DNA of 44,410 bases from Calditrichota bacterium (lineage in GTDB: Bacteria; Calditrichota; Calditrichia; RBG-13-44-9; J042), in contig JAADJD010000023.1 of NCBI GenBank assembly GCA_013150955.1, positions 1 to 44,410 of the forward strand. The letters run 5' to 3'. Positions 37,605 to 42,650 of this stretch are shown piece after piece (position 1 is the stretch's first letter; each line of letters starts with the position of its first letter). The notes below the pieces were generated by a model. The model saw nothing but the letters and a program-made list of their open reading frames with translations. It ran no database searches and was not told the origin of the DNA. A program made the translations under genes and the position numbers.

Positions 37605-38564
37605 ATGACTGGAGCCGTCAGCGAAAGCATTGGTCTTCAACAACAGACGTTAACCGTTTCCTGGTCGGTGGGAAACCTTCGGTTGCATTTCCGGTTGTAT
37701 GATCTGCCCACGCTGGTTTACCTGGGAACCTGGATGGTATTAATCATTTTTTCCTGGAATCGGCTGCCATCCCCCGGGTTTTATCTGATTTTTCACCTGG
37801 TTTTCATTGGAAATATCGTCTTGTTTGCGCTTTTTCCGGTGCACCAGCCGCTGGCGTTCTTCGTCCGTCAGTTTTACCTGGTGCTGTATGTTCCTTTGTT
37901 TTTCACTGCCCTGCACTATCTCATCCCTGCCGTCCACCCCTGTACCATTGATCAACAATTGATAGAGCTGGATTTGTTGCTGCTGGGACAGCATGCCACT
38001 GTGCTGACCGAAAGCATTACACATCCGATATTGACCGAATTTCTGCAGTGGTGTTACACCAGCTTCTATTTTTTACCGGCGGTGGTTGCAGCCGTGCTCT
38101 ATTCCCGAAAGCAATGGAAGCATCTGGATTACTTTATCACTCTGGTTGCCCTGGGATTTTATCTATCCTACATCGGTTACTTGATGTTCCCGGCCCTTGG
38201 CCCACGCTTCTTCCTGGCCCATCTCCAACAAATCCCCCTGAAAGGGGTGCTGGCATTCGAGTCCATCCAAAACACTTTGAATTCGCTGGAAAACATTCAG
38301 TGGGATGCGTTTCCCAGTGGCCACACGGCCATAGTTTTGATCCTCTTTTACTACACGTATCGGTACCAGCGCGGTCTGTTCAAAGGGATTGCTCCATTTG
38401 GAATGGCCTTAATCTTTTCGACCGTGTACCTGCGCTATCACTATTTTGTGGATGTAATTGCGGGTATCTTCTGGGCATGGTTCACCATATGGTTGACCAA
38501 TTGGCTGGTCAAAAAACTGTTTCCGGACTGGCGAATGGAACCATCCGGGCAGTCAAATGGATGA
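37605..38564 (+). CDS. PAP2-superfamily membrane phosphatase or phosphotransferase
   Basis: The 319-residue protein has about six to eight membrane helices. The catalytic motifs are FPSGHTA and, after one helix, RYHYFVDVIAGI, the second and third phosphatase motifs with the two catalytic His residues. Between the helices it has MFPALGPRFF, whose GPR is typical of the inositol-phosphotransferase-like PAP2 subgroup rather than of simple PgpB enzymes. It probably hydrolyses or transfers a lipid-linked phosphate on the outer face of the inner membrane. GGAAG precedes the ATG. It is the last plus-strand gene before a convergent unit. Confidence 0.85.
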   Translation: MTGAVSESIGLQQQTLTVSWSVGNLRLHFRLYDLPTLVYLGTWMVLIIFSWNRLPSPGFYLIFHLVFIGNIVLFALFPVHQPLAFFVRQFYLVLYVPLFFTALHYLIPAVHPCTIDQQLIELDLLLLGQHATVLTESITHPILTEFLQWCYTSFYFLPAVVAAVLYSRKQWKHLDYFITLVALGFYLSYIGYLMFPALGPRFFLAHLQQIPLKGVLAFESIQNTLNSLENIQWDAFPSGHTAIVLILFYYTYRYQRGLFKGIAPFGMALIFSTVYLRYHYFVDVIAGIFWAWFTIWLTNWLVKKLFPDWRMEPSGQSNG

Positions 38565-38576
38565 TTTCGTCTCTAA

Positions 38577-38749
38577 GTTTATCCCGGATAATGCATTCGA
38601 CCACGAATTGCACGAATGAACACAAATAAAAATATCAAATAAATTGGATGAGACCTGGATGAAAATTTGTTTCGGGGTATACTCGCGATCTTGTGGATAT
38701 GGTTTGGCTTCATTCGCGTGATTCGCTGTTTAATGCTAATTTGGGTTTA
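38577..38749 (-). repeat. Dispersed intergenic repeat, copy G (inverted)
   Basis: A full copy on the minus strand: read forward, right-end complement CCACGAATTGCACGAATGAA, core complement CTGGATGAAAAT and left-end complement TTCATTCGCGTGATTCG. It fills the gap between the two convergent genes; GGGTTTA ends one base before the stop codon of the minus-strand gene. Confidence 0.85.
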
Positions 38750-40027
38750 TCACAGGCTTACCTGAATGCTATAGCCGCCGTTCAGGCGATCGTCAAATCG
38801 GGTGTTGACCACGTTGGAGAACAGCGATCCAAACGCATAGGAAATGCCGAACGATAGAAAATAACTGTAAGTGGTTTCCAGCTCTTTGCGGCGCAGCAGG
38901 ACTTCTTCGGGAGTGGCACCCAGGCGGGGTAAGGAAAGTTGATCCCGAATGCGCGAATACTGTCCGAAAATATTCACCGAAAATCCCTTGAATATTCGCC
39001 AGCTGGCGCTACTAAATAACACCACTCGATTCTTGCTGAGGTCATGCAGATATTGCGACCCCAGCACCGAAATGGCCAGACGTCCCCAGGGTTGCTGAAA
39101 CGATACTCCCACCATCAGGCTCTGCTTCCAGAGAAATTCCTGGACTTTATTGAAAATGGTTTCCTCAACATAAGCGACTGCCTGAGGTTCCATGGCATAA
39201 CTGATGGTTAGAGATCGGCGGGTGGATTCGGAATAGGGGAAAACATTGAATTCCAGCGCCGGGCTGCCATATATCTGCCAGCGAATGTTCCGGTAAGAAG
39301 AACTAAAATAATTCACAAAAAATCCCAGAGACCAGTGATCGGTTAAACTTCGGACAATGCTGGAACGGATGCCATGACTGCGGGAAATACTGGTTAATCG
39401 GGTGCCGGGGTAACGAAAGGTGCTTTCATTATAATTACCGTAGATCTGAAAGATGATTTTCCAATCTAAAGTGATCTTTTTTGCAGAGATGTTTCCAAAA
39501 CTGGACGTGAAGCGAGTCAGTTTTTCCCCATTGGAGAAAACATTCAGGCGAATGGAAAATATCCAGTTTTTCCAGCGATCAATCTGCTGGGCCGTGGTGA
39601 CTTTCTTCAAATACTGAATGGTTAGAAAGTCCGCCACCGGGGTGTGAGCCACGTATCGCATCAATCCTAGTTTTAATTTGTGAACCAGTCCCTTACGGAT
39701 TTCATCATCGGTAGCGTCGTTGCTGGAGATGTAGGTCAGGGTATCGTTGAGGTTTCGAAACCGTTGTTTGCCGATGAAAGTCAACGTGTATTCCCGCCCT
39801 CCACTTCCTGTTTCCCGGATGGTTACCAGAATGTGAACCTCGGCCTCCGTCCAATCCCGTAAGTAATGCACGTAGGGAATGTTTTCGCGAATGTAGTCCA
39901 GATCGCAGGATGGACAATCAATGAACACGCGCAATGCCTTTTCCATCAGTTGATGCGTGTCCGAATGGGAAGGACTGATCAACAGCAGGGCCAAGGTAGC
40001 GGTTAACATCACGATGTGTTTAACCAT
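38750..40027 (-). CDS. Predicted outer-membrane beta-barrel protein with N-terminal periplasmic domain
   Basis: This 425-residue protein has a signal peptide (about 1-22). An N-terminal domain (about 30-135) contains CPSCDLDYIRENIPYV (Cys38, Cys41), an AEVHILVT strand and TGSGGREYTLTFIG. The rest (about 155-425) is made of alternating polar/hydrophobic strands rich in aromatic residues (SWRIFKGFSVNIFGQYS, TTYSYFLSFGISYAFG), as expected for a beta-barrel. I do not know a named family with confidence. AAGGAGG lies 6 nt before the ATG at 40027; an in-frame ATG at 40105 lies inside the preceding gene. It is the last gene of the sigma-factor operon, so it is probably a target or sensor of that sigma factor. 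Confidence 0.75.
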   Translation of the reverse strand: MVKHIVMLTATLALLLISPSHSDTHQLMEKALRVFIDCPSCDLDYIRENIPYVHYLRDWTEAEVHILVTIRETGSGGREYTLTFIGKQRFRNLNDTLTYISSNDATDDEIRKGLVHKLKLGLMRYVAHTPVADFLTIQYLKKVTTAQQIDRWKNWIFSIRLNVFSNGEKLTRFTSSFGNISAKKITLDWKIIFQIYGNYNESTFRYPGTRLTSISRSHGIRSSIVRSLTDHWSLGFFVNYFSSSYRNIRWQIYGSPALEFNVFPYSESTRRSLTISYAMEPQAVAYVEETIFNKVQEFLWKQSLMVGVSFQQPWGRLAISVLGSQYLHDLSKNRVVLFSSASWRIFKGFSVNIFGQYSRIRDQLSLPRLGATPEEVLLRRKELETTYSYFLSFGISYAFGSLFSNVVNTRFDDRLNGGYSIQVSL

Positions 40028-40043
40028 GGGTTGCCTCCTTGAC

Positions 40044-41243
40044 TTAAGGTAGGGCATAATAGACGTGTGTTTGCCGGGCAAATTGTGCCGCGGAAATTTT
40101 CCCAACTCGCAATTGCTGAAGCGCCCGGACTGGAATGTGAATCCTGAAATATTCGATATCGGAATTAAAGCTCATCATGTCGGAATGGAATGTGAAAATC
40201 AGCTGATCCTCTTCCGGCAAATTGGCCAAAAACGTGCCATATGTTTGCACGACTTTAATAAATCCGGGAATAAAATTTTTCAACCACTGGAGTGCCCTTT
40301 TATCTCGATCGGCATCAGATAGGGTCTGGAAGAAGGATGGGGTAGATGTCATCCATCGCATGGAAAAGAAGAAAAACATGCCATTGCCTTTCAGATACAG
40401 GGGGGATATCTGGCTGAATTGAATTTTCTGCGACGGTACGACCTGTCGCAAAGCGGTGGGCAGGATGTCCGTAAAAACATGAACATCCACTTTTAATGGT
40501 ATTTCTGAATGTGTTTCTTTCTGAATTCGATTGGAGAATGATGCAAGAGAAATGCGGCCCTGACGAAATTGCAGTACGTCCCGCTTTTTAACCCGATATA
40601 CCCGAAGCGGCGAGTCGCCCCATTGGCGGAACCAGCTTTCTGCCCCGGACAGGTAAAAAACCAGCATTAAGTCAGCATCCATTGGCAACCGATTTCCGGC
40701 ATCGGCGTATTGTGCCAGAAATTTGATGGCAATGCTATCCAGTTTCGAGCGAATCTGTTGAATTCGCTGAATCATTCGTAATGAATCTGCGGAGAGTTTC
40801 TGTTTATTTCCGTTGAGCTTGATGACAATGGTTGCGGAATCCGTTGGAGAACCAGGAGGAGGAACGATAATCTCAACGGAACTTCTGTCGCTGTCGGATT
40901 CGGCTGACGTTGCCTCCTCGGTTTTCCTCTTTTTTTGAAAGGACTGAAGGTATTCTTCGATGCTTATTGCATAATTTTGAGCCATACGCGCATGATCTTG
41001 AATCATGGAAAGAAACATGGGAATCTGGTAGCTATTTAATTGTACAAAATAAATCACCTGCCGGGAATCGGTCCTGATGGGTGCGATTATTGGTCGGCCA
41101 CTGTTCAGGAGCAGTGCTGTAAGTGATTGTAGCGCTTGAGATTCCACAGCAGTGGCACCGGCGGCAGAGACTTTCTGATACGTTTGCGCCGTCATCAGTC
41201 CCAAAAATCCGAGGATGAAAAAAATTGTTATGTGCAGCCTCAT
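40044..41243 (-). CDS. Secreted protein of unknown family
   Basis: The 399-residue protein has a signal peptide (about 1-19, ending MTAQ). The body is mixed helical and strand. A Lys/Glu/Ser-rich linker lies at about 104-125, and the strand SVEIIVPPPGSPTDSATIVIKL follows it. The chain has no Cys and no catalytic motif that I recognise. The phrases LRVYRVKKRDVLQFRQGRISLASFSNRI and LRVGKISAAQFARQT look like a repeated short unit (a hydrophobic strand, then K/R-x-G-x-I-S-x-A-x-F), suggesting an internal duplication. GGGAGGT precedes the ATG. It lies 14 nt after the anti-sigma gene and 16 nt before the beta-barrel gene. Confidence 0.7.
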   Translation of the reverse strand: MRLHITIFFILGFLGLMTAQTYQKVSAAGATAVESQALQSLTALLLNSGRPIIAPIRTDSRQVIYFVQLNSYQIPMFLSMIQDHARMAQNYAISIEEYLQSFQKKRKTEEATSAESDSDRSSVEIIVPPPGSPTDSATIVIKLNGNKQKLSADSLRMIQRIQQIRSKLDSIAIKFLAQYADAGNRLPMDADLMLVFYLSGAESWFRQWGDSPLRVYRVKKRDVLQFRQGRISLASFSNRIQKETHSEIPLKVDVHVFTDILPTALRQVVPSQKIQFSQISPLYLKGNGMFFFFSMRWMTSTPSFFQTLSDADRDKRALQWLKNFIPGFIKVVQTYGTFLANLPEEDQLIFTFHSDMMSFNSDIEYFRIHIPVRALQQLRVGKISAAQFARQTHVYYALP

Positions 41244-41257
41244 GGGACCTCCCTCGC

Positions 41258-41908
41258 TTATTTCGTTTGTTCCTGCAATACGGTCTGTAGCCAGTGCAGG
41301 GTTTGTTGTGCCCTATATTGATTTTCTGCCTGAACGTATTGGAGAAATCGGGCCAGCAGATATTGATTCTGTTGCTGGTGTTGCTGCAGAGAATAATGTA
41401 ACCGGTTTATTTCGGATAATAGAAACCGCTCTTGCATCTGGTGGGATGCCGTCCAGTTTTGCCATGATTGGTAGAAGGCCTGTTGCTGGATCTGCAGCTG
41501 GAGGATCATTTGATGATTTTGTTGTGCCTGTTTCTGAATGGCCTGCAGAATTTGGACTTCTTTTCCAGCCTGGGAGGAAAACTGGATTTTCCCCGATAGC
41601 AGCGCAATCAGAAAAAAGATGGCGGCTACTCGCAATACCATATCGATGACTTTTTGAGCGCGATACCAGATAGTTGTGTTTTTCTTTTCGGTCGGTGAAG
41701 AGGAATCGGTTATGACCAGCAATTCGGGGGGATCCCCTTTCATATCTGGCCAGCGTTTTAAAGCGTTCAGGCTTTGCTGATATTTCAGCAGTTCTGCACG
41801 GCAGCCGGGACAGGTTCGCAGGTGCTGCTCAACCTGCTGGGCTTCGGACGATGAGGTTTCTCCCGCGGCATAAATTGGTAACAGGGATTGAATTACCTGG
41901 CAATTCAT
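41258..41908 (-). CDS. ZAS-type anti-sigma factor with Gln-rich extracytoplasmic coiled coil
   Basis: The 216-residue protein has an exact zinc-binding anti-sigma motif, Cys3-x25-His29-x3-Cys33-x2-Cys36, in the cytosolic N-terminus, then one transmembrane helix (about 89-106). The ~110-residue extracytoplasmic part is helical and extremely Gln-rich (QQHQQQNQ, LQLQIQQQAF), predicted as coiled coil. ZAS domains hold an ECF sigma factor inactive until a signal acts. It starts 3 nt after the sigma gene. The Gln-rich sensor half has no known domain and may contact the secreted protein or beta-barrel encoded downstream. Confidence 0.88.
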   Translation of the reverse strand: MNCQVIQSLLPIYAAGETSSSEAQQVEQHLRTCPGCRAELLKYQQSLNALKRWPDMKGDPPELLVITDSSSPTEKKNTTIWYRAQKVIDMVLRVAAIFFLIALLSGKIQFSSQAGKEVQILQAIQKQAQQNHQMILQLQIQQQAFYQSWQNWTASHQMQERFLLSEINRLHYSLQQHQQQNQYLLARFLQYVQAENQYRAQQTLHWLQTVLQEQTK

Positions 41909-41911
41909 GGC

Positions 41912-42433
41912 CTATATTTCCTCCAATAATTTTTTCTCTTCCAGCATTTGACGGATCAGTCGAATGCCCCGATAAAACCGAGACTTAATGGTATTCACCG
42001 AAAGGTTAAGGATCTGCCCGATTTCATCGAAAGTCATATCGTGGTAGATTTTTAATACGACCACCGTTCGAGGTTCCTCTGGTAGATGTCGAAAAATTTC
42101 CTGAAAAATTTTTCTCAGATGATTTTGCTGTAGCTGTTGCAAGCATCCTTCAGAAGGGTTACTATCGGGTTCATCTGTTAACCGATCCAGCGGATCGTGA
42201 TGATGCCTCCGGTTTTGTCTCCGGAGCATGTCCCGTGCAGCATTGATGGCAATCCGGCAAATCCATTGCCGAAAATTTCGGATTTCCGGTAGACGGTGAT
42301 AGTGCCGGAACAATTGTATGAACGTTCTCTGGGTGGCTTCTTTTGCCAGATCTTCGTCCAGCACAATGCGGTAAGTTAAATTCAAGATTTCGCTATACCA
42401 TTCGCGATAAATAGATTCAAACGACGGTTGCAA
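41912..42433 (-). CDS. ECF-family RNA polymerase sigma factor
   Basis: The 173-residue protein has region sigma2 (about 5-72; AKEATQRTFIQLFRHYHRLP and FRQWICRIAINAARDMLRRQ) and region sigma4 (about 110-163; LPEEPRTVVVLKIYHDMTFDEIGQILNLSVNTIKSRFYRG). They are joined by an acidic linker, the usual ECF layout. It should direct RNA polymerase to its own operon and other targets when released from the anti-sigma factor. The start is a TTG preceded by GGAAGGGGAA; there is no ATG in frame before the sigma2 core, so the weak start codon may limit its expression. Confidence 0.92.
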   Translation of the reverse strand: MQPSFESIYREWYSEILNLTYRIVLDEDLAKEATQRTFIQLFRHYHRLPEIRNFRQWICRIAINAARDMLRRQNRRHHHDPLDRLTDEPDSNPSEGCLQQLQQNHLRKIFQEIFRHLPEEPRTVVVLKIYHDMTFDEIGQILNLSVNTIKSRFYRGIRLIRQMLEEKKLLEEI

Positions 42434-42650
42434 CGGGTTCCCCTTCCGCTTCCTTTGACCGTGTTTCGTAAAAAAGACGTTCGGATATCGAGAATAGTTT
42501 ATTCGATTTTAGAAAAATTTAAAAATCTTCAGAAAAATGGTGTAGGAAGGTTTTGGACAAAGCAGAATTGATGGAAGAGAAATTCCATTCCCTGCTCATT
42601 TTTCGAATTTTTTGTGTATATTTCTTCATCACCAAAGGGAGAAGGTAAAT

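Follow-up and report, generated by a model that had tools for sequence, protein, structure and literature searches.

An ECF sigma factor, a ZAS anti-sigma factor and an exported two-domain protein encoded together in three bacterial phyla, with an outer-membrane barrel as a putative optional client

What is the purpose of an operon that joins an ECF sigma factor and its anti-sigma factor to an exported protein and an outer-membrane barrel? This question is raised by a locus of a Calditrichota bacterium, located on a contig of 44,410 nucleotides that was analysed as a whole (hereafter the window) and that is part of a 4.07-Mb genome, 99.7% complete. As the initial annotation had described, four open reading frames follow one another on the minus strand with intergenic gaps of 3, 14 and 16 nt. 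In order, they encode the ECF sigma factor (S), the zinc-type (ZAS) anti-sigma factor (A), the exported gene 3 protein (D) and the outer-membrane barrel (B). The same annotation had set this operon apart from the FecIR/TonB and RseP/DegS layouts and the gene content agrees: profile searches detected no plug, TonB or protease domain in the operon proteins, and there is no protease gene in the operon. Its proposal of a self-contained envelope-sensing system fits the first three genes, which are linked in three phyla and have a common promoter, while the fourth gene fits it less well.

The first two genes encode what they had been taken for. S (42433-41912, minus strand, TTG start, 173 aa) is made of sigma regions 2 and 4 only, with Pfam matches above the gathering scores (Sigma70_r2, E 1e-10; Sigma70_r4_2, E 2e-12). 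In the sigma tree, it lies inside a clade of 55 rows (support 0.97) that holds all 53 other D-linked sigma factors and one more. A (41908-41258, minus strand, 216 aa) matches zf-HC2 (E 4e-11) and its zinc motif H29-x3-C33-x2-C36 (HxxxCxxC) is invariant in 34 family sequences; as a ZAS anti-sigma factor, it is predicted to bind and inhibit S. Hydropathy places a single transmembrane helix near residues 84-109, a stretch detected in 39/40 A proteins, and a predicted periplasmic helical tail of 111 residues follows. This tail had been singled out for its glutamine content, which is indeed 29% in the window. Such richness is special to the window copy (family mean 14%, maximum 21%), while the tail itself is a conserved feature of the aligned family. 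Across D loci, the S and A genes usually overlap by 11 nt. Anti-sigma matches retrieved from other Calditrichota proved to belong to other ECF systems.

Gene 3 (41243-40044, minus strand, 399 aa) had been described as coding for a secreted protein with no recognised domain. Sequence searches of Pfam, NCBIfam and PDB indeed give nothing convincing for D, yet the protein has an internal duplication and belongs to a conserved family. When used as a single-sequence query, gene 3 found nothing among 39 relatives, which first suggested an orphan; this idea was dropped when the family was revealed by the internal repeat and by G004, a relative from the same order in which A is fused to one D domain that forms the C-terminal part of the anti-sigma factor. 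A two-row profile then retrieved matches from two more genomes, where the D gene is again third behind sigma and anti-sigma genes and again has two domains, and a better profile followed. Against a profile made from 39 other D proteins, gene 3 scores E 1.2e-26, whereas 500 shuffles all remained above E 1. The two halves of the D family align mutually at 99.8% probability and, judging from this alignment, D is a tandem duplication of one domain. Domain 1 (40539..41168, minus strand) is divergent in the window copy; domain 2 (40047..40538, minus strand) carries the motif YLKGNGMFFFF, which reads Y-L-x-G-x-G-x-x-F in the family. A hydrophobic N-terminus is found in 34/39 D proteins. Structure prediction from the single window sequence was unusable (pLDDT 45).

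In the KSB1-containing phylum, profile searches detected D in 41/82 genomes, with one protein in each; D was further found in 21/199 genomes of the Neomarinimicrobiota phylum and in 2/40 Calditrichota. Among the 60 D loci, window and G004 fusion counted in, 55 have a sigma gene upstream in the same orientation and the other five are interrupted by contig ends. S, A and D are kept together in three phyla, and the expectation that the downstream families co-occur with ECF genes is borne out for D, with S upstream in 55/55 reachable loci, and fails for B, which is normally unlinked. The window protein has the family features: two tandem domains, predicted export and a gene that follows S and A in third or fourth position. 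In most genomes, the operon ends with D. At three loci (L200, L201 and L214), a second ECF sigma gene (~194 aa), an anti-sigma gene (303-309 aa) and a gene of 380-458 aa are found 125-294 nt beyond the S-A-D operon.

A shared promoter motif upstream of position 42433, which the initial annotation had suggested looking for, is present. The predicted autoregulatory ECF promoter of the window, TAAACTATT-N13-CGTCTTT (42473..42501, minus strand), stands 39 nt before the TTG start of S and has the same motif as its relatives. Indeed, AAAACTTTT-N13-CGTCTWA precedes 48/55 related sigma genes, with a spacing of 13 in 45 cases, the invariance of its cores being partly by construction as the scoring favoured ACT and GTC. 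The window promoter is the best motif match in the 44 kb, both strands considered, with a p of about 0.005 in the upstream region. In 12 genomes, the number of motif matches is no greater than in the reversed control; these matches are informative by the genes behind them only, not by their count. The genes in question are the sigma gene, a secreted PDZ protein family, once a DegP-like protease and once a barrel. The PDZ family stands behind the motif in 8/12 genomes and is the leading candidate core target of the sigma factor. Its genes lie behind the motif at L266 (1635-2621), L144 (3354-4232), L264, L265, L267, L272, L274, L279 and L283, and in G004 the same family directly follows the A-D fusion operon. 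The PDZ and DegP-type genes behind this promoter elsewhere point to an envelope-stress regulon devoted to envelope quality control. In the window's own genome, there was no convincing second target: the motif was found before the operon and, with one match, inside a doubtful ORF. The motif occurrences before unlinked barrels (G118, G170), promising at first sight, showed no significant excess over controls (p 0.17).

The fourth gene (40027-38750, minus strand, ATG start, 425 aa) had been annotated as a predicted outer-membrane barrel with a CPSCD-containing N-terminal domain; the ORF list gives it as a 451-aa entry starting at an upstream TTG inside gene 3. The structural model (pLDDT 84.6, pTM 0.63) supports this assignment: residues 155-400 contain 12 strands and are preceded by a distinct alpha/beta domain. 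Queried with this model, Foldseek returned porins and autotransporter barrels with E down to 4e-7 and, among the matches listed, TM-scores of only 0.21-0.35 by query length. Pfam, NCBIfam and PDB sequence searches give only weak DUF481 and OMP signals, DUF481 being weakly matched in 4/59 homologues. D and B are two exported families covered by no curated library searched. The N-terminal domain of B (residues ~30-135, about 39623-39940, minus strand) holds the CPSCD motif (39902..39916, minus strand). Both cysteines are conserved in at least 90% of 59 homologues and D-C-x2-C-D is nearly invariant across the family; the pair is perhaps a disulfide or a metal site. It is replaced in a few members (L018, L285). 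A TolB-like nature of this domain was considered, and hhalign found none.

A contig scan with the single barrel sequence gave no matches at first. B homologues with 32-49% identity were identified in nine other Calditrichota genomes, and the family counts at least 495 homologues in Calditrichota, Aminicenantes, Acidobacteriota, Bacteroidota, Ignavibacteria, Zixibacteria, Latescibacterota, Gemmatimonadota and others. In 89 B neighbourhoods, no partner recurs except tandem copies of B itself, and ECF genes occur in only five of them, none with the window layout. In Aminicenantes and Acidobacteriota, two B genes often stand in tandem, separated by about -4 to 50 nt (L044-L046, L049, L051, L052, L058, L061, L068, L069 and others). 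B forms a separate and widespread family and does not belong to a fixed ECF system. The initial annotation had itself named a wide occurrence of the downstream proteins without an ECF pair as the test of its proposal, and the barrel is widespread in precisely this way. An obligatory barrel sensor is not tenable on this ground, and the distribution of B likewise rejects it as an obligatory partner.

Does B then belong to the module at all? It could stand behind the operon by accident and be expressed there without any functional tie, as D and B occur independently at the genome level (across 81 genomes, they are not found together more often than chance predicts, p 0.66) and B stands alone in nearly every genome. 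For a random gene, adjacency to the operon would be expected in roughly one genome in 1000, whereas B is joined to it in the window by a gap of 16 nt and sits beside A and D in another clade, where both the gene order and the barrel ancestry differ. Indeed, the three related genomes G129-G131 have the layout S-A-B-D; their barrels fall inside a starred set of nine in the barrel tree, while the window barrel falls in another set of eight (support 94/98). From these different tree positions and gene orders, the link between B and the module was probably made at least twice, which is hardly explained by chance, and we regard an accidental neighbour as quite unlikely. The same repeated joining, together with a conserved, periplasm-sized domain bearing a CxxC pair, could be taken to mean that B is the sensor, its N-terminal domain reporting the state of the outer membrane or a ligand through D to A, as FecA does to FecR. 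Hundreds of B genes are not located near ECF genes, though, and no B was found in 22/41 D genomes of the phylum of G107. An obligatory sensor would not be absent so often; a lineage-specific one could exist, and a sensing barrel seems improbable to us. The best reading makes B an optional component, which in some lineages serves as effector or client and, as we see it, is an output rather than a sensor.

The place of D can be debated in similar terms. Being predicted to be exported and the last gene of most operons, D might be the main effector, a periplasmic or surface protein made under stress, with A sensing alone through its helical tail. The fusion of A and a D domain in G004 and the single fixed place of D behind A favour instead a direct link to A, and elsewhere the promoter serves other, more typical effectors; D as main effector is thus somewhat unlikely. 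Its position, its export and the A-D fusion make it most likely that D acts on the A tail in the periplasm, by analogy with RseB on RseA. E. coli RseB acts on RseA in the periplasm (PMC8103513).

Altogether, we consider it probable that S, A and D form an RpoE-like ECF envelope-stress circuit with unrelated sensing parts, in which D is the periplasmic partner and B an optional outer-membrane client. A would hold S at the inner membrane through its ZAS domain while its helical tail extends into the periplasm, where the exported two-domain D would act as co-regulator and sensor, in contact with A. An envelope signal, which we take to run from the envelope to A, would lead to the inactivation of A, probably by regulated proteolysis. 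Freed S would then transcribe its own operon from the AAAACTTTT-N13-CGTCTWA promoter, and the same promoter type in other genomes would drive periplasmic quality-control genes, namely those of the PDZ protein and of the DegP-like protease. In the window genome, B, encoded by the last gene, would share this control in the role of effector or client. The chances are about evenly balanced for a wider claim, namely that S-A-D is an undescribed signalling system of at least three phyla, that duplicated D is a periplasmic sensor on the A tail and that B has been recruited repeatedly as its reporter or effector in the outer membrane. A literature search, with most subscription journals outside its coverage, returned no report on the S-A-D(-B) arrangement.

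How this genome came by the operon can be approached from its surroundings. Orthologs of S, D and B were absent from every genome sampled from its genus and family, and the operon (window positions 38500-42500) has a G+C content of 46-47% against about 49-55% in most flanks. A relative of the adjoining aldehyde dehydrogenase, 76% identical, occurs in the same genus among other neighbours. Acquisition of the operon from elsewhere is possible, the alternative being its loss in relatives.

Envelope surveillance is hardly known in poorly cultured phyla such as Calditrichota, KSB1 and Neomarinimicrobiota. The sequences of three phyla reveal what is likely a complete circuit, with its promoter code, a new exported family and candidate targets, and D and B, two families without curated coverage, gain a genomic context.

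Among known systems, B shares its barrel fold, as seen by Foldseek, with porin and autotransporter-type barrels and has weak DUF481 matches; it differs from them by a conserved N-terminal domain of its own and by the fact that no curated family covers it. In FecIR with FecA, the genes of an ECF sigma and anti-sigma factor likewise adjoin that of an outer-membrane barrel. However, B has 12 strands where the receptor has 22 and matches neither the plug nor TonB receptors; A, of the ZAS type, matches zf-HC2 and not FecR, and B is dispensable. ECF operons with CpxP-like third genes, which we observed in other Calditrichota, and those whose exported third gene is of the DUF4252 type likewise have the gene of an exported protein immediately after those of the sigma and anti-sigma factors. 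D matches neither Pfam nor NCBIfam families, and none of 37 D proteins scanned matched DUF4252 (PF14060) up to E 0.01. Finally, the rpoE-rseA-rseB(-rseC) operon of E. coli differs in its parts. Homology of A to RseA and of D to RseB was considered and rejected, as hhalign finds no similarity: A is a zf-HC2 (ZAS) protein (probability 0.5% with RseA) and D is built from one duplicated domain (0.2% with E. coli RseB). Furthermore, the window operon has a barrel gene after D, and its promoter is of the AAAACTTTT/CGTCTWA type. What the two systems have in common is their order, with a sigma factor, a membrane anti-sigma factor and an exported protein acting, for D putatively, in the periplasm, and a sigma promoter placed before both the operon itself and periplasmic quality-control genes.
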